Shown: piece after piece, positions 9,045 to 15,717 of the stretch
Layout of the letters: each line of letters starts with the position of its first letter
Position numbering within the stretch: the stretch's first letter is position 1
Source: a bacterium
GTDB taxonomy: Bacteria > Bacillota > Bacilli > Lactobacillales > Streptococcaceae
Length of the DNA stretch: 41,611 nucleotides
Assembly: GCA_905221375.1 (NCBI GenBank)
Contig: CAJNCY010000013.1
Span: forward strand, 1 to 41,611
Direction: 5' to 3'
The notes under the pieces: generated by a model
Told to the model about the DNA's origin: nothing
Seen by the model: the letters and a program-made list of their open reading frames with translations, nothing else
The model's database searches: none
Program-made: the position numbers and the translations under genes

Positions 9045-9974
9045 CTAGATATCTAAAGGCTGTCCAGTGTGATTGAGCTGTGTGACAGTAACAAAGAAGT
9101 CCTCTCTCATTCGAGTCAGAAGTTGATTTGGATAAATTTTTTCAAAGTTATCGAGGCTGGCAAAGATGTGTTTTGCAAGTTCTAGCCCTCTGACGTCATC
9201 TTGTCGGAGAAAATTATTAGCACGTTCCATGGAAATGCTAATCATCTCTGTCATCTTGGTACTCAGTAGAGGGAAAGTATTAATCACTTCCAGAGTCTTA
9301 AGAGCTAAATTCTCAGCCTTATCATAGTAGCCATTGACAGAGTAATGCTTGATAGCAGTTCTTAAGCAGGCAATATAGTAGTCAGCAGTACGGATTGAAT
9401 GGTATTCAGTCTGTTTTTTTAGAGTATCTAATAAGTGGTAGAGCCTGTAATCTAAAAATTCAATTGAAAAGTGAGGCAGAATAGATGAAAAGATATTCAC
9501 CTCAATTTTATTCCAATCGTCCAATTCACTGAGATAGTTTTTGATATATTCTAGTTCTTGATAATCTTTTGGAGTCAGAAAAGAATCGCCGATGATGTTT
9601 GCGATAGCAAATTTATTGACTACACGATTGGCAATCACATAGTGTTCAGCGATCCCAGGATTTTCCAGAGGTTGATTAATCAAGCTAAGAATCTTTTTAA
9701 ATTCACGCTTATAGGCCAAATCAGCAACTTGAGCCTGTAATTTATGAAATTCCGTTGGAAACATCTGCGTTTTGAGACTATCAAATGTCTCTTTATCAAT
9801 TCCAATATTAGAAAGAATCTCTTCAAATTTTTGGATGGTTATCCGAGATTTCCCTTGCTCAAACTGACGTAAAAAGTGAGGAGTCACTGTAGTCCCAGCA
9901 GCTTCTTTCTGTGTAAACCCTCTCTCCTCACGGATGGCCTTATAGACTAATCCATAAACACTTTCATCTTGCAT
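9045..9974 (-). CDS. Rgg/GadR/MutR-type transcriptional regulator
   Basis: 309-residue regulator with an XRE-type helix-turn-helix at about residues 5-60 (ERGFTQKEAAG ... TPHFLRQFEQGKSRIT) and a long all-helical C-terminal region. That is the layout of streptococcal Rgg proteins, whose TPR-like domain usually binds a small peptide. The start is the ATG at 9974, with GAGGAG 7 bases upstream; an in-frame TTG at 9989 overlaps that site. It is divergent from the SPFH operon, and the shared gap holds the repeated operator-like sequence and a 17-G tract, so it is the obvious candidate regulator of both the operon and the choline-binding gene. I found no SHP-like peptide gene beside it. Family secure, individual identity unknown. 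Confidence 0.85.
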   Translation of the reverse strand: MQDESVYGLVYKAIREERGFTQKEAAGTTVTPHFLRQFEQGKSRITIQKFEEILSNIGIDKETFDSLKTQMFPTEFHKLQAQVADLAYKREFKKILSLINQPLENPGIAEHYVIANRVVNKFAIANIIGDSFLTPKDYQELEYIKNYLSELDDWNKIEVNIFSSILPHFSIEFLDYRLYHLLDTLKKQTEYHSIRTADYYIACLRTAIKHYSVNGYYDKAENLALKTLEVINTFPLLSTKMTEMISISMERANNFLRQDDVRGLELAKHIFASLDNFEKIYPNQLLTRMREDFFVTVTQLNHTGQPLDI

Positions 9975-10001
9975 CCTAAAGCTCCTCAAGTCCTTTTTTC
10001 C

Positions 10002-10030
10002 ATTCTATCATAATTCTACCAGTTTTTAAG
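10002..10030 (-). promoter_or_regulatory. Possible promoter of the Rgg-type gene
   Basis: Minus strand TGATAGAAT, an extended -10 with TAGAAT at 10007-10002, about 28 bases before the start codon. At 17-base spacing the -35 would be CTTAAA, which is weak and fits a regulated promoter. Confidence 0.4.
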
Positions 10031-10047
10031 GGAATTTTTAGAAAAAA

Positions 10048-10069
10048 GTAAATATAGTTACGCTTTTTC
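10048..10069 (+). promoter_or_regulatory. Operator-like copy 1 (partial)
   Basis: GTAAATATAGTTACGCTTTTTC. It matches copies 2 (10103) and 3 (14726) with few differences. In copies 2 and 3 the next element is another GTAAAT; here the match breaks into the G tract exactly at the G of that element. It lies between the Rgg-type gene's promoter and the operon promoter. Confidence 0.65.
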
Positions 10070-10086
10070 GGGGGGGGGGGGGGGGG
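10070..10086. repeat. 17-base poly-G tract
   Basis: Seventeen consecutive G in the 289-bp gap between the Rgg-type gene and the SPFH operon, immediately right of operator-like copy 1 and 16 bases left of copy 2. Homopolymers of this length are prone to slippage. This one is not in a credible reading frame, so variation would alter promoter geometry rather than a protein. Confidence 0.95.
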
Positions 10087-10102
10087 TAATTGTTCAATAA
10101 AG

Positions 10103-10138
10103 GTAAATATAGATACGCTTTTCGTAAATAAGGTAAAT
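10103..10138 (+). promoter_or_regulatory. Operator-like copy 2, SPFH operon promoter
   Basis: Three GTAAAT elements at 10103, 10124 and 10133 (offsets 21 and 9), the first within GTAAATATAGATACGCTTTT. The middle element overlaps the -35 position of the downstream promoter. The same arrangement (GTAAAC, GTAAAT, GTAGAA with offsets 21 and 9) occurs at 14726-14761. Likely binding site of the divergent Rgg-type regulator; this is inference. Confidence 0.65.
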
Positions 10139-10151
10139 AGCATGCTATACT
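10122..10151 (+). promoter_or_regulatory. SPFH operon promoter P1
   Basis: Extended -10 TGCTATACT (TATACT 10146-10151) with an unsatisfactory -35 (TCGTAA, 18-base spacer), as expected for an activator-dependent promoter. Nearly the same sequence recurs at P2 (14745-14774). Confidence 0.7.
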
Positions 10152-10174
10152 GTAACCGTAAACAATAAAAATTT

Positions 10175-10181
10175 AAAGGAG
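10175..10181 (+). promoter_or_regulatory. Orphan Shine-Dalgarno in the operon leader
   Basis: AAAGGAG followed by ATTACTTATAATTATAG. In the sister promoter at 14798 the same AAAGGAGATT precedes the start of the choline-binding gene, but here no start codon lies within range; the next ATG (10207) is 25 bases away. The operon's working site is a second AAAAGGAG just before 10264. Confidence 0.6.
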
Positions 10182-10263
10182 ATTACTTATAATTATAGTA
10201 CATTAAATGTCTCTACGAAATGATAGAGAGTTACTAAACAAATTGTTATGAAAAGGAGTAGTT

Positions 10264-11307
10264 ATGGCATTAAATATATTTGAAGTTGTTCGGTATGAAG
10301 GAGAAGATACTAGAAATGTACTAGCTTGGCGACATCCTAATAAAAATATGAAACCTGGAACAACTTTGATTGTTAATCCTGGTCAGCGAGCTGTTTTTTT
10401 CTCAAATGGTCGAGCTGTTGAAAGTTATGAGGAAGGTAAACATAAGATTGATGGGAACAATACTCAGTTTCTATCGGGGCTAAAATCCTTTGTCAGTGGG
10501 GGTGTATCACCAGATTCTTCCTTCCTTTGGTTTGTCAATATGTACGATTTACAACCAATTGGATGGGGGACTCCGTCACCGATATTGGTTAGAGACCCAG
10601 AAAGTCAAATTCCTGTTGAACTAAAATCGTATGGAAACTTTATTCCGAGAATTGTTGATTTAGAAACTTTTATCTTAGAGTTTATGCCAAGCCATCCAGA
10701 TATGATTACAGCTGATGTCTTTCAAAAACGCTTTAGACAAGCTGCTATAGGCATTATCAATTCAGCTGTTTCTCAGGTGGTTTATAATAATAAGATTGCA
10801 GTCATCGATATTGAAAAGCACACCTATGATATAGCTCTGGAATTATCAAAAATTTTATCCAATCATTTTTCTAAATATGGGATTAGTGTTGAAGAATTTA
10901 ACATTGAAGCCTTGAAGGTTAATCAAGATAGTCAAGGTTATAAGGACATCTTTGGATATCATCAAAGAATCTTGACTTCCAAAGGTAAACGTGCAGGTCG
11001 TGACATTGAAGGTTACACTTACCAAGAAGAACGTCAATTTCATGTTTTAGAAGAAGCTGCACAAAATGAAGGCTCTGCAGGTAACTTAATGGGAGCTGGT
11101 ATGGGGATATCGATGGGACTCGGATTAGGAGCCCAATTTGGTAATTTGATGGGAAGTATGGGGAATACGTTATCATCAGATAAACAGCAAAATCAGAATC
11201 AATCAGCTTCAAATGAAGAAATCGGTTTAGCTAAGTTTTGTAGTCAATGTGGGACTGCATTTTCAGACGGAGCTAAGTTTTGTTCCAATTGTGGTCAGGC
11301 AAGATAG
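10264..11307 (+). CDS. SPFH-domain protein (YdjI-like) with C-terminal zinc ribbon
   Basis: 347 residues. The region of about 30-230 reads as the SPFH (band 7) domain of the class also labelled virion-core-protein-like: TTLIVNPGQRAVFFSNGRA, then WGTPSPILVRDPE and a coil region. B. subtilis YdjI, which works with membrane proteins at the envelope, is of this class. There is no clear transmembrane segment. A Gly/Met-rich stretch lies at about 270-300, and a C4 zinc ribbon at the very end: Cys326, 329, 340, 343 (CSQC-x10-CSNC). AAAAGGAG precedes the ATG. First gene of the operon, 9 bases before the next. Likely a membrane-associated scaffold; the substrate or signal is unknown. Confidence 0.82.
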   Translation: MALNIFEVVRYEGEDTRNVLAWRHPNKNMKPGTTLIVNPGQRAVFFSNGRAVESYEEGKHKIDGNNTQFLSGLKSFVSGGVSPDSSFLWFVNMYDLQPIGWGTPSPILVRDPESQIPVELKSYGNFIPRIVDLETFILEFMPSHPDMITADVFQKRFRQAAIGIINSAVSQVVYNNKIAVIDIEKHTYDIALELSKILSNHFSKYGISVEEFNIEALKVNQDSQGYKDIFGYHQRILTSKGKRAGRDIEGYTYQEERQFHVLEEAAQNEGSAGNLMGAGMGISMGLGLGAQFGNLMGSMGNTLSSDKQQNQNQSASNEEIGLAKFCSQCGTAFSDGAKFCSNCGQAR

Positions 11308-11316
11308 GAGAAGAAT

Positions 11317-11727
11317 ATGAGTAAAAATATTTGGATTTATGTAGCTGGTGCTGTGACTATCATTACTACAATTATTTTAGGATTATTAATTCCGCATCTA
11401 TCTATTTCTTTATACTATGTTGCTTTGGGATTTTTAGTCATAGCAGAGTTTGTTTTTTTCTTACAAATGGTTATCAAGCGTCAATTTACAGATTGGCTAC
11501 CAATCAATGTAGTTACTGCTATTTGGGTACTTGGGCAAGTTTTCATGATGCCTCTAGTACAGATTTTGCCAAGTTTTCTGTTTTGGATTATTGAAGTACT
11601 AGCAATCGCTTTGGTGGCTATTATAGGCTCTTTAACAGCAGCAGATAGTCACTATCGTAAAGGACGAGCAGAAGCTTTCTCAGAAAATGCAGAGGATGTT
11701 TTTAATCCTAAAAAGGGAGATTATTGA
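11317..11727 (+). CDS. Four-helix membrane protein, unknown function
   Basis: I do not recognise this 136-residue protein. Four hydrophobic segments are visible at about 7-27, 31-53, 61-82 and 85-108, followed by a hydrophilic acidic tail (ADSHYRKGRAEAFSENAEDV...). AGGAG lies 7 bases before the ATG. It starts 9 bases after the SPFH gene and its stop overlaps the next ATG (TGATG), so it is translationally coupled on both sides. The context suggests an integral-membrane partner of the SPFH protein. Confidence 0.8.
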   Translation: MSKNIWIYVAGAVTIITTIILGLLIPHLSISLYYVALGFLVIAEFVFFLQMVIKRQFTDWLPINVVTAIWVLGQVFMMPLVQILPSFLFWIIEVLAIALVAIIGSLTAADSHYRKGRAEAFSENAEDVFNPKKGDY

Positions 11728-12029
11728 TGTATCAAGTATTTCGGTCATTAAGTTTGCTATTTATGGGATTGACAGCTGCAACATTTTTTTTTACTATCGT
11801 TTTAAAAGTGCTTGGTATTATTGACCATGGCGAATCTTTTTCGATGGAATTTTTTCTATCCGATCCTGCAATATTTTCTTTTTCAGGTTTTGCTTTATCT
11901 GTATTTCTTTTTGATAGTTTTGAGAATTTAGAAAAAATAAAAATAAAAGTGAAGGCATTAGATGAAATATATAGGGGCAAAATTCTATATAAGGAGTATC
12001 TTCTTAAGGAGAAGAAAGGGGGAAAGTAA
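11727..12029 (+). CDS. Small membrane protein, unknown function
   Basis: 100-residue protein with two hydrophobic segments (about 5-28 and 42-62) and a very basic C-terminal tail rich in lysine (KIKIKVKALDEIYRGKILYK). The ATG at 11727 overlaps the previous stop; an in-frame TTG three bases earlier is less likely. It ends one base before the GTG of the following gene, with AAAGGGGG in its tail serving that gene. No family recognised. The sequence is visibly AT-rich compared with the flanking core genes. Confidence 0.72.
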   Translation: MYQVFRSLSLLFMGLTAATFFFTIVLKVLGIIDHGESFSMEFFLSDPAIFSFSGFALSVFLFDSFENLEKIKIKVKALDEIYRGKILYKEYLLKEKKGGK

Positions 12030-13235
12030 GTGTCTGAGTTGTTTTCCTTAAATTGGAAATCTGTAGATAAATGGATTATGGTAGTAGTTGCTCTTTTTCT
12101 ATCTTTGTATGATTTTATTTTTCATTTAGAAGAACCTAGTATTCTCAGAATGAGTATTTTACCATTTATATTTTTATTGTCGTTAAAAATTTTATTTATA
12201 ATCTTTCGAGTCAAATCGGAAAGTGTCTTATCTTACACGCCTATTTTATCTTTATTAGTGTTACTATTAGGTGCTCCCAACATCACATACATTATATTTG
12301 GTCTTCTATACTCATTCCTTAAACCATTGGATATAGAATTTCAAGTACATGTTATGTCCTGTTTTTCCTTTAAAAATCTAAAGTATATTCACTTATCACT
12401 TTTAATTTCATTACTTATTATTTTGTCAATGTTTATGAGTAATTTTTCAGGGGATAAGGCAATCTTCTTGGTAGTTATTTATCGCATATTGCCCATATAT
12501 CTCATCTGTCTTACATCATTTTTGGCAGTAACCTATTTTAGGCGTAAGGCTGAAAGAGAAGAAAATACCAGACAAAAATTTATTTTCTTGTCAGAATTAT
12601 ATATGATATCTTTCAATACAGTCTTGGGTCTATTAATGTGGGCATTTAAACAAATTATAATCTTTGGATGCACTGTCTTTGCTTACTTTATTTTTTCATA
12701 TTACTACCCTTATGTAATGAAAATATTTACTTTTTTATTCTTTCTTTTTATAATCGGTGTTCCAATCCCTGTTTCCATATTATCTTTTACTCTACCAAAT
12801 ATTATTTATTCTATATTTTCCCTATTACTAATGTGGTTATTACGAGAGAAGATAAAAGAACGTTTAACTTTAGATAATTTATTGAAATGGAATTTCTCAC
12901 AGTTATTCGTTATTATATTCTCATTCTTTTTTGGTATTGAATATGAAAATATAAGAGAGTGGGCAATTAAGATACTTCAAATTCTTGTACCTTGGTATAT
13001 AATTTGTTTAATTCTGATTGTAATCCTAACATATCGTCGAGCAAAGAAGGAGGAAGATATAAACACAAGAAAGCAAATTTGGGAGCTGTTTAAGTTATTC
13101 AAAAGACATGAAATTAAGGAAACAACCTATCCTGTGATTTGTCCATCTTGTAGTAGCGAAAATTTATTAGAGTTAGGCCAAGGGAAAACTTGTGACTATT
13201 GCGGTGGCTGGCTTTCTAGAAAGAGGGATTTATAA
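12030..13235 (+). CDS. Polytopic membrane protein with C-terminal zinc ribbon
   Basis: 401 residues starting at a GTG directly after the preceding stop, with AAAGGGGG 8-12 bases upstream; the first internal ATG (residue 17) would cut into helix 1. Roughly nine to ten hydrophobic segments span residues 14-345. The cytoplasmic-looking tail carries a C4 zinc ribbon, Cys371, 374, 388, 391 (CPSC-x13-CDYC). The same CxxC-x13-CxxC spacing ends the next gene product, and a related ribbon ends the SPFH protein. Family not recognised; very AT-rich. Probably the core membrane component of this locus (inference). Confidence 0.75.
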   Translation: MSELFSLNWKSVDKWIMVVVALFLSLYDFIFHLEEPSILRMSILPFIFLLSLKILFIIFRVKSESVLSYTPILSLLVLLLGAPNITYIIFGLLYSFLKPLDIEFQVHVMSCFSFKNLKYIHLSLLISLLIILSMFMSNFSGDKAIFLVVIYRILPIYLICLTSFLAVTYFRRKAEREENTRQKFIFLSELYMISFNTVLGLLMWAFKQIIIFGCTVFAYFIFSYYYPYVMKIFTFLFFLFIIGVPIPVSILSFTLPNIIYSIFSLLLMWLLREKIKERLTLDNLLKWNFSQLFVIIFSFFFGIEYENIREWAIKILQILVPWYIICLILIVILTYRRAKKEEDINTRKQIWELFKLFKRHEIKETTYPVICPSCSSENLLELGQGKTCDYCGGWLSRKRDL

Positions 13236-13697
13236 ATGAAGCGTTATCGTTCAACTATAATAAAATTTATCTATCCACCTGTTTTTATTATCTGTTTTAT
13301 TCATGGATTCAGATTATACCAAGCTATAGTTGGGGAATATCAAATGTGGATAGACAAGAGAGGATCTGAATTAGATTTCAAATTCCGCTATTCTATGTAC
13401 ATTTTGACATTTCAAGTACTATTTGGGTTATTTTTTATCTTTCTAGTAATTTCATTCATTTTATTGCTAAAACCACCAACTATGAAAAAATATAAGACAA
13501 GTTTAAAAACAGTTTTAGAATATGAGAATCGAAACGAAGACGTTCTTGAAGATCAAGGACATGAAATGCGAAAAGAAACAGATTATCGTTTATCTGCTAA
13601 ACGAGTCTACTGTCCAACATGTGATGCACCAACAGAAGGTGTGGTTGGTTCTTCCCTAACCTGTGCAAATTGTGGAGAAGTTTTTGAGGTAACCTAA
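13236..13697 (+). CDS. Bitopic/two-helix membrane protein with C-terminal zinc ribbon
   Basis: 153 residues; the ATG follows the previous stop without a gap. Hydrophobic segments lie at about 7-27 and 52-78, then a charged linker and a C4 zinc ribbon with Cys126, 129, 143, 146 (CPTC-x13-CANC). That is the same spacing as in the preceding 401-residue protein, so the two tails are probably paralogous or interact. No named family recognised. 87 bases separate it from the GIY-YIG-like gene, with no terminator seen between. Confidence 0.75.
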   Translation: MKRYRSTIIKFIYPPVFIICFIHGFRLYQAIVGEYQMWIDKRGSELDFKFRYSMYILTFQVLFGLFFIFLVISFILLLKPPTMKKYKTSLKTVLEYENRNEDVLEDQGHEMRKETDYRLSAKRVYCPTCDAPTEGVVGSSLTCANCGEVFEVT

Positions 13698-13784
13698 AGG
13701 TTAAATGATATAAATCTAAAACTATTTTTTAAGAAAATCTTAGGAGGCTCTTTAAGTTGAGAATATAGCGAAAGGAAATAAAAT

Positions 13785-14657
13785 ATGCTTAATTTAAAAA
13801 CATTATTAGGAATTGATGATTTAACTGAATTTAATATTAAATTGGATAATATAGATCAGTTTGGAATTGATACGAATACATTATTTGCTTTAAATCATGA
13901 TCGTTTATTACAAGAGATTGGTTTTCTTCATGACAGCAATCGAAAAAGAAAAACACCAGGTTTCAATTATGTTATGGATAGGAAGTATACTATTCATTTT
14001 ATTCCTTATGATTTAAAAAATAAATTATGGTTGTTTGTGGGAGTTTTTATACAACCGAGTACGTATGAAGTTGAAAAAGATGGTGTTACGACTACCTTTT
14101 ATAATTTAATTCCTGTCTCTGAATTTGATGAAGTAGGATTGAATGGGCGTTTAATTATGAAAATGGTAAGACCTACCAAATCGCAACATTTTAGATTTAG
14201 ATTAGAAGATTCATTAGAATGGTTTACTCTAAATTCAATATTAGAAAGAAAAATTGATACTAAAAACTTTAATGGATATGAAAATGTATGTTTGACTTAT
14301 CCAGAATTAAAAGGGATTATTTCTAACGGAAATCCATCTTGGAGAACGGCTTTGGGAAATCTAAATGCAGTTTATTTACAAGTTGATAAGGAAACAGGTA
14401 AACAATATGTTGGAGCCGCGTATGGAGAGCAAAAGTTATGGGGGCGTTGGACAAATTATGTTGATAGCTATCACGGTGGTAATAAAGGTTTGAGAGCTTT
14501 GTATGAAGAAAAAGGTGGGGAATATTTTGAAAAGAATTTTATATATACAATTTTAGAAATTTTTTCTAATAAAACTCTTAAAGCTGAAGTAATAGAGAGG
14601 GAAAACTGGTGGAAAGAAATTTTAAGGACTCGTGATTTTGGCTACAATGAAAATTAA
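13785..14657 (+). CDS. GIY-YIG nuclease-domain protein
   Basis: 290 residues with a C-terminal GIY-YIG-like domain from about residue 190. The two core strands are AVYLQ (Tyr197) and YVGAA (Tyr208-Gly210). The catalytic arginine candidate is Arg221 in GRW, a SYHGGNKGLRALYEEKG block follows, and the metal-binding glutamate candidate is Glu271 or Glu273 in VIERENWWK. The canonical GIY is replaced by AVY, so activity is not assured. The N-terminal 180 residues are not recognised and might recognise a target. AAGGA precedes the ATG. It lies between the membrane-protein genes and the second operator-controlled gene. It could be a restriction-like or defence nuclease, or simply a passenger. Confidence 0.72.
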   Translation: MLNLKTLLGIDDLTEFNIKLDNIDQFGIDTNTLFALNHDRLLQEIGFLHDSNRKRKTPGFNYVMDRKYTIHFIPYDLKNKLWLFVGVFIQPSTYEVEKDGVTTTFYNLIPVSEFDEVGLNGRLIMKMVRPTKSQHFRFRLEDSLEWFTLNSILERKIDTKNFNGYENVCLTYPELKGIISNGNPSWRTALGNLNAVYLQVDKETGKQYVGAAYGEQKLWGRWTNYVDSYHGGNKGLRALYEEKGGEYFEKNFIYTILEIFSNKTLKAEVIERENWWKEILRTRDFGYNEN

Positions 14658-14703: not shown

Positions 14704-14724
14704 TTTATTTGAAAATCAAATAAA
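14704..14724. promoter_or_regulatory. Perfect inverted repeat next to operator-like copy 3
   Basis: TTTATTTGA-AAA-TCAAATAAA, a 9-bp perfect palindrome with a 3-base loop, ending one base before the operator-like GTAAAC at 14726. No U-tract follows, so it is not an obvious terminator. It could be a protein-binding palindrome or a weak terminator for the GIY-YIG-like gene. Confidence 0.5.
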
Positions 14725-14725
14725 G

Positions 14726-14761
14726 GTAAACATAGATACGCTTTTTGTAAATAGAGTAGAA
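14726..14761 (+). promoter_or_regulatory. Operator-like copy 3, choline-binding gene promoter
   Basis: GTAAACATAGATACGCTTTT followed by GTAAAT (14747) and GTAGAA (14756), the same three-element spacing as copy 2. Identity with the P1 region continues through the -10 and the Shine-Dalgarno. Confidence 0.65.
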
Positions 14762-14774
14762 TCTATGCTACAAT
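14745..14774 (+). promoter_or_regulatory. Promoter P2 of the choline-binding-repeat gene
   Basis: TTGTAA (14745-14750), an 18-base spacer and extended -10 TGCTACAAT (14766-14774). It aligns base for base with P1 apart from a few substitutions. Confidence 0.75.
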
Positions 14775-14811
14775 GTAATCGTATACAATAAAATCTTAAA
14801 GGAGATTCTTG

Positions 14812-15717
14812 ATGAAAAAATACATTTTACTCGCCTCAGCTGTTTTAGCGGTGGGTCTTGCAACTACAACAAGCGATACAAATTCTTTCTTTGTGTCAAC
14901 AGTTAGAGCTTCTGAACAAACACTTAATCCATCTGCAAAATATTATATTCTTGTTCCCAATGATTCAGAAGTATTTAAAGGATGGAAGGGAACTGCCAAT
15001 CGTCCCATTATTTGGGCTACAAAAACTACTCCAGAATTATCTTACTTCGAAGAATCCGATCGCAACTATATAGCTCTTGAGAATAAGTCTGGTGCCAATT
15101 ACATAGAGTGGAAGGGAACTGTAGACGAGTTTAAAGAGGCTGTGAAGAAGCTGACTGGTAAAACAACAGCTGCTACAACTCCCAAAACGTCTAACCAATC
15201 AACAACTACTACAACTCCCAAAACGTCTGGTCAATCAACACCGAATCAAAGAGATGGATGGTCGGGTTTATCTTATTATCAAAATGGTAGTAAAGTTATC
15301 AGTAAGTGGATTTTCGATAAAAACTATAATTCCTACTTCTACCTAGATGCTTCAGGTAACTTTGTCCAAAATTCTTGGGTAGGAAACTATTACCTTAAAT
15401 CAGGTGGTTACATGGCTAAGAGTGAGTGGATTTTTGATAAGAACTATGGTGCCTACTATTATCTAACGTCTGAGGGGAGCTATTCTTACAGTACTTGGGT
15501 TGGTGATTATTATGTTAAATCAAATGGTAAGATGGCTACAAAAGAGTGGATTTTTGATAAAAACTATGATTCATACTATTATTTAACATCAGAAGGAAGC
15601 TATGCTCGTAACACATGGGTAGGTGACTACTATCTCAAATCAAATGGTAAGATGGCAGTCAACGAACGTACCCCAGATGGCTACCAAGTAGATAGTTCAG
15701 GTAAGTGGGTTAAATAA
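14812..15717 (+). CDS. Secreted choline-binding-repeat protein
   Basis: 301 residues from the ATG at 14812 (AAAGGAG upstream). Signal peptide of about 1-34, with cleavage likely near VRASEQ. A compact N-terminal domain of about 90 residues that I do not recognise is followed by a Thr-rich linker in which a 36-bp unit is repeated (TTPKTSNQST / TTPKTSGQST). From about residue 150 there are choline-binding-type repeats of the LytB style: KWIFDKNYNSYFYL, EWIFDKNYGAYYYL and EWIFDKNYDSYYYL, each followed by WVGDYY-type and KSNGKMA-type segments. These would tether it to phosphocholine on teichoic acids. No catalytic domain is evident. It shares its promoter module with the SPFH operon, tying this surface protein to the same regulator. 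Confidence 0.85.
   Translation: MKKYILLASAVLAVGLATTTSDTNSFFVSTVRASEQTLNPSAKYYILVPNDSEVFKGWKGTANRPIIWATKTTPELSYFEESDRNYIALENKSGANYIEWKGTVDEFKEAVKKLTGKTTAATTPKTSNQSTTTTTPKTSGQSTPNQRDGWSGLSYYQNGSKVISKWIFDKNYNSYFYLDASGNFVQNSWVGNYYLKSGGYMAKSEWIFDKNYGAYYYLTSEGSYSYSTWVGDYYVKSNGKMATKEWIFDKNYDSYYYLTSEGSYARNTWVGDYYLKSNGKMAVNERTPDGYQVDSSGKWVK
15175..15246 (+). repeat. 36-bp direct repeat in the Thr-rich linker
   Basis: Two near-identical 36-bp units (ACAACTCCCAAAACGTCT followed by a CAATCAACA segment), in frame, 12 codons each. Copy-number change would lengthen or shorten the linker without a frameshift. Confidence 0.7.

Follow-up and report, generated by a model that had tools for sequence, protein, structure and literature searches.

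An uninterrupted row of 17 G residues lies between two conserved, operator-like near-palindromes that separate the gene of an Rgg-like regulator from a divergent presumed operon in a DNA stretch of 41,611 nucleotides (the whole stretch analysed, hereafter the window). It is, in our assessment, somewhat probable that this tract acts as a slippage-variable contingency spacer between the operators, which would give graded, heritable expression via the regulator. The window is part of a mitis-group Streptococcus chromosome with the order tig, recD2, lepB, rnhC, zapA, cvpA, mutS2 and then the island, followed by an alanine symporter gene, serS and fab genes. The features discussed below are as follows.

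9045-9989, minus strand: Rgg-like regulator, start ATG at 9974 or TTG at 9989
10013-10018, minus strand: putative extended -10 of the regulator gene, TGG-TAGAAT, 29 bp from operator 1
10048-10061, no strand assigned: operator 1, GTAAATATAGTTAC, 14-bp near-palindrome, from sequence and relatives
10070-10086, plus strand: G17 tract, presumed slippage-prone, 13-20 G in relatives
10087-10102, plus strand: 16-bp flank from the tract to operator 2, identical in the window and its five closest intact relatives
10103-10116, no strand assigned: operator 2, GTAAATATAGATAC, 14-bp near-palindrome, from sequence and relatives
10146-10151, plus strand: putative extended -10 of the operon, TGC-TATACT, 29 bp from operator 2
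10264-11307, plus strand: presumed operon's first gene, encoding a zinc-ribbon SPFH/Band_7_1 protein
11317-13697, plus strand: four further cargo ORFs (11317, 11724, 12030, 13236), no Pfam family above cut-off
13785-14657, plus strand: UzuA-like protein, PADLOC defence model, E 1.5e-48
14726-14739, plus strand: operator 3, GTAAACATAGATAC, 29 bp before TACAAT (14769-14774), without a G tract
14809-15717, plus strand: choline-binding surface protein behind operator 3, start TTG at 14809 or ATG at 14812

The initial annotation, made from this DNA alone, had described 17 uninterrupted G, a gap of 16 bases from the tract to the second operator-like copy and a noncoding position. All three were borne out: the tract occupies 10070-10086 on the plus strand, the gap is exactly 10087-10102, and no ORF of at least 80 aa, the shortest length in the ORF list, spans the tract. 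The longest G run elsewhere in the 41.6 kb window is 6 and the longest T run is 9; G17 is the sole homopolymer of at least 10 there. The chance expectation for such a run in the window is about 4e-7 (first-order Markov estimate). The tract is confirmed as real and is no chance run.

Together with its A/T-rich arms, operator 1 extends, by eye, into a near-palindrome spanning 10041-10069, whose right end meets the tract. An operator with at most 3 mismatches, followed after 28-30 bp by a -10 that matches at 5 or more of its 6 positions, was found at three places in the window, namely operators 1 and 2 and 14726-14739. The last of these, operator 3, was absent from the initial annotation and precedes the choline-binding-protein gene with the same geometry. 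The operator motif alone (at most 2 mismatches) has 6 matches in the window against 2.5 expected by chance; it is not rare, and it is the geometry and the conservation that carry weight. Three operator-like copies beside a divergent regulator had been proposed around the tract: the divergent arrangement holds, with the Rgg-like gene leftward and the operon rightward, and copies 1 and 2 are conserved, but copy 3 (GTAAATAGCATGC, at 10133) is missing from two of the seven aligned rows (lost in G190 and G172). TAGAAT occurs again at 10002-10007 where, paired with TTAAAA, it scores as a promoter. The promoter at operator 3 nearly duplicates that of the operon (about 10094-10180 against 14717-14812), and the cargo at 10264-14657 is therefore bracketed by a direct repeat. 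Recombination between the two promoter copies that flank it could swap this cargo or lose it.

We call the regulator Rgg-like rather than a proven Rgg. Its resemblance to the Rgg/RRNPP regulators (Rgg2, Rgg3, Rgg144, ComR) consists of structure matches and weak Rgg_C and RGG_Cterm profile matches, and it differs from them in profile scores that stay under the cut-offs: RGG_Cterm 18.8 bits against 36.9 and Rgg_C 18.6 against 27. The helix-turn-helix profiles are likewise below (HTH_19 24.1 bits, cut-off 30.2; HTH_3 22.6, cut-off 23). A relative 71% identical to the window protein (P0007) reaches 29.6 for Rgg_C, above the cut-off of 27, and three others (P0002, P0004, P0006) score just under it. 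A search of solved structures by sequence gave Lmo0325 (1.8e-9) and 7zcv, which is Rgg144 (9e-6). The predicted structure (mean pLDDT 74.6, built from 7 sequences) has Rgg3, Lmo0325, Rgg144, NrpR and Rgg2 as its best structural matches, with low TM; for the top Foldseek matches, Rgg3, Lmo0325 and Rgg144, E is 1.8e-5 to 7.5e-5 and TM only 0.34-0.37. The protein cluster at 98% identity contains 1566 member sequences, so the regulator is common.

A search for the regulator in 284 Streptococcus genomes (E<=1e-30) found it in 12, ten of them close (88-98% identity) and two distant (38-39%). The relatives with a close regulator (8 loci) are labelled S. pneumoniae, S. mitis, S. pseudopneumoniae, S. 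shenyangsis and S. infantis. An intact, pure tract was present in six of the ten close genomes: 15 G in G195, 13 in G067, 20 in G188, 14 in G264, 15 in G190 and 15 in G172. It could not be read in the other four, which have a contig end or N there: in G066 (12 G), G243 (7 G) and G245 (2 G) a contig ends inside the tract and another begins just to the right, and in G169 an N run begins at the expected tract position. All ten are compatible with the same architecture, and the breaks in four assemblies may reflect poor sequencing of long G runs. The seven intact copies, window included, hold 109 G without a single interruption, and their lengths (17, 15, 13, 20, 14, 15 and 15) compare species representatives, one genome per species, and may be wrong in draft assemblies. 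Lengths of 13-20 are therefore the opposite of the invariant length across strains that the initial annotation had named as counting against its proposal, and its expectation that related genomes differ in length is upheld. The sequence next to the tract behaves differently. The flanks between the operators are nearly constant in the closest relatives despite the changing tract length; across the window and its five closest intact relatives, every column of the 16-bp flank is identical and five different tract lengths occur.

The distance from operator 2 to the rightward -10 is 29 bp in all seven intact copies, and that from operator 1 to the leftward -10 is 29 bp in six and 28 in G195; G067 and G190 have another ATTCTACCA at a leftward gap of 40, besides the -10 at 29. 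Since these gaps are constant, the G count n alters the distance between the operators and not that of an operator to its own promoter. The suggestion that length shifts copy 1 relative to copy 2 is thus supported by the architecture, with start-to-start spans of 51-58 bp, about five to five and a half helical turns. Exact matches to an extended operator motif occurred only at the regulator locus in the ten close genomes, and the reversed-motif control gave one match in each of two of the 12 genomes; with one mismatch, matches occur elsewhere too (contig 2 of G067; G002, which is without a close regulator). G190 repeats the operator-29 bp arrangement some 6 kb away, where a choline-binding gene has CATACT for its -10. 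A DNA search of 117 relatives matched 11 genomes, with the regulator locus only in G066 and G067; the other matches were short (24-42 query bases), one being the G17 of G022. A search of viral contigs for further alleles gave 0 matches.

The favoured contingency-spacer reading would work as follows. Replication slippage would alter the G count (the evidence here being differences between genomes), and each G added or lost would displace the two operators relative to each other by one base pair and turn them by about 34 degrees around the helix, with each operator's gap to its own extended -10 staying nearly fixed (29 bp, once 28). The Rgg-like regulator is predicted to bind both operators and is probably an activator, because its sites would be placed some 42-55 bp upstream of the start and a good -35 was not seen. 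As the tract is outside both core promoters, we propose that its effect needs operator-operator interaction; contacts or looping between two bound dimers would depend on n, and n would set transcription of the regulator gene and the operon to graded, heritable levels that differ from cell to cell. The choline-binding-protein promoter, which has no tract, would follow through the regulator level. Cargo genes would be exchanged between strains and the regulator, operators and tract retained. Slippage within a strain, regulator binding, activation and spacing dependence are the steps that we infer.

The tract could also be mutable but silent, slipping without any readout because each operator would serve its own promoter independently. 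Every operator indeed has the complete 29-bp geometry, the third without any tract. A pure run in seven of seven intact copies argues against silence, as does its being the only run of at least 11 G in five of the six intact genomes (G195, G190, G264, G188 and G172; G067 has others). The two distant homologues bear on both sides of the question. In G042, whose regulator is 38% identical, the order is GAACATAAATGTTC, 19 bp, G12, 9 bp, GAACATTTATATCC, 29 bp and TATAAT, upstream of a gene for a secreted-looking protein that has no Pfam family. A run between operators is found there too, which again speaks against silence; the G042 operators differ in sequence from those of the window. G054, with a regulator 82% identical to that of G042, has kept operators and genes and no longer has a pure run, the interrupted tract GAGGGGGG standing at the G12 position, as would be expected of a silent tract. 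The leftward operator to -10 gap is 28 bp in both. Near four regulators at 28-30% identity no G run of at least 7 was found in the fetched 3.4-3.9 kb. The architecture thus recurs with other operator letters; it is not universal and can decay. On balance we consider a silent tract rather unlikely.

In Neisseria porA, poly-G/C slips within the promoter, between -35 and -10. The window shares with it a poly-G in a promoter region and differs in that the tract is outside both core promoters, neither a TTGA-like -35 on its left nor a -10 on its right being seen in the window. A spacer-type promoter in the window was rejected because the scan of 9900-10300, which gave 3 sites against 1.5 expected by chance, found none across the tract. 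A variant of this arrangement seems to us improbable, namely a third rightward promoter (operator 1 - TTTTTC - Gn - TAGAAT), active only at some n, whose spacer the tract forms or once formed. In the S. infantis copy (G172) the tract is followed at once by TAGAAT, and poly-G spacer promoters elsewhere in the genus share the flank TTTTC-Gn-TA, but the window and its five closest intact relatives read TAATTG where the -10 would be, the spacer pattern matches none of the ten close genomes, and by arithmetic the 29-bp rule needs n near 21, above all seven observed lengths.

We give equally little credence to an action of the tract through its own DNA shape (a stiff G-tract or a quadruplex) or as the site of another protein, with length of minor importance. 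The 16-bp flank, invariant in six rows, could mark another site, but length varies where the flanks are constant. A three-tetrad intramolecular quadruplex requires at least 15 nt, and lengths of 12-14 are too short for it. Single-strand folding of the tract region was no better than that of shuffled sequences (z 0.26), in a program that does not count as a quadruplex test. The quadruplex of the initial annotation was therefore not borne out as a conserved feature, and we do not favour it as the main idea because lengths 13 and 14 occur and no signal supports it. An assembly or sequencing artefact is very improbable: long G runs are error-prone and four assemblies stop at the tract, but seven sequences join both flanks through it, and G195 and G190, two of the seven, are single-contig genomes.

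Under the preferred reading, in which n sets the spacing of the operators, the nearest proven case is in our assessment nadA/NadR and the nearest streptococcal one the T tract of R28/Spy1337. In meningococcal nadA, according to PMC2791445, NadR operators flank a repeat whose number tracks expression, differences in operator spacing probably explain the differential repression, and the expression difference between repeat numbers largely vanishes without NadR. The likeness is a simple repeat with operator or operator-like sites on either side. In the window two conserved near-palindromes, to which binding of the regulator is predicted, flank the tract, each 28-29 bp from a -10, and 13-20 G stand beside a 16-bp flank invariant in the six closest rows, a comparison between species representatives. 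In that system the repeat is a tetranucleotide, the regulator is a repressor and IHF lies between the operators (PMC2791445), whereas here there is a G homopolymer, a divergently encoded adjacent Rgg-like regulator, a Gram-positive host and exchangeable cargo. In S. pyogenes, PMC7098570 reports a T tract between divergent Spy1337 and R28 (Spy1336) in which a single base alters both transcripts, 9, 10 and 11 T giving three transcript levels. This resembles the window in having a homopolymer between a divergent regulator gene and a target gene, and differs in having a poly-T of 8-13 and an LPXTG protein (PMC7098570) as against a poly-G of 13-20 with palindromic operator-like sites. The R28 homopolymer is a T tract beside a surface-protein gene; that of the window is a G tract whose first target varies (the SPFH operon, a choline-binding protein or an Hsp70 module). 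A further streptococcal homopolymer case, of the C/G kind, is mga of Group A Streptococcus, where slipped-strand mispairing in a polycytidine tract alters a surface-protein regulator; that 8C tract lies inside the gene (both as cited in PMC11868660), and the one described here is noncoding, between operators. Among the listed titles and starts of abstracts of open-licence papers no noncoding poly-G switch in Streptococcus was found. Our best reading is that operator-spacing phase variation is known and that its poly-G, Rgg-like version in Streptococcus would be new.

The genes behind the putative switch vary between genomes at one chromosomal site. The SPFH operon is the cargo in the window and in S. 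shenyangsis (L029), and choline-binding proteins are found in SMRU824 (L025) and S. mitis OD_317805_11 (L030). Genes for Hsp70, DnaJ/TPR, GrpE and a NERD-domain protein form an alternative cargo in S. infantis (L032:3281-7501). The same Hsp70 start is visible at the locus edge in G195 and G190, and in L031 the Hsp70 frame is split. A group I intron endonuclease model also matches the UzuA-like protein weakly (30.7 bits, below cut-off). PADLOC gave no match for the Hsp70 module and the other cargo proteins tested, UzuA apart.

Runs of at least 11 G are present in 67 of 279 Streptococcus genomes, and the pattern TTGA, 4-10 bases, G10, 0-6 bases, TANNNT matches in 37 of the 279, with 0 for the reversed control. 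The 30 loci fetched in the plain G11 search, one per genome for 30 genomes (the run that was listed first), comprised 10 of the spacer type, 5 of the window's own locus and 15 of neither, several of the last inside ORFs. Together with 30 promoter-pattern loci (L033-L062 and L120-L149 in all) they gave 50 distinct tracts of at least 10 G, 30 of which fit a spacer of 15-24 bp, mostly 17-19, in a set biased by the promoter-pattern fetch. The window tract is not of this -35/-10 spacer type. When a simple hydrophobicity rule was applied to what follows 30 spacer tracts (L120-L149), 20 had a protein with a signal-like start, 8 lacked one and for 2 no ORF was found; ten of the 20 signal-like proteins were scanned and nine had surface, pilin or YSIRK-signal families. 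Spacer poly-G tracts of 10-18 are a candidate genus-wide set of phase-variable promoters.

Taken as a whole, the initial interpretation is partly supported: its anatomy and polymorphism are well supported by the comparison of genomes, and its functional part we infer. We give somewhat less than even odds to the idea that Streptococcus has an unrecognised poly-G phasome. In one branch the tract would lie in the -35/-10 spacer of surface-protein genes; in the other it would separate the operators of an Rgg-like regulator and serve as a graded dial on their spacing. This dial would occupy a fixed chromosomal site, with mutS2 on one side and the alanine symporter gene on the other, and drive interchangeable cassettes: SPFH genes with the UzuA-like defence gene, choline-binding proteins, or the Hsp70/DnaJ/GrpE/NERD module. 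If length sets expression, clonal mitis-group or pneumococcus-like cells would differ in surface and possibly phage-defence genes. Four of the ten related assemblies stop at the tract, which is therefore easily overlooked. With its geometry of 29 bp, variable spacer and 29 bp, the locus allows a direct test of the operator-spacing idea in a Gram-positive bacterium.

Two further observations concern the wider set of tracts. At L058 (G032) a G11 lies between two CTACT...AGTAG palindromes, before a secreted-looking protein, and is possibly another operator-flanked tract; it fits a weak spacer promoter too. The base preceding long G runs is C in 36 of the 50 distinct tracts, often as TTC (L033-L062, L120-L149).
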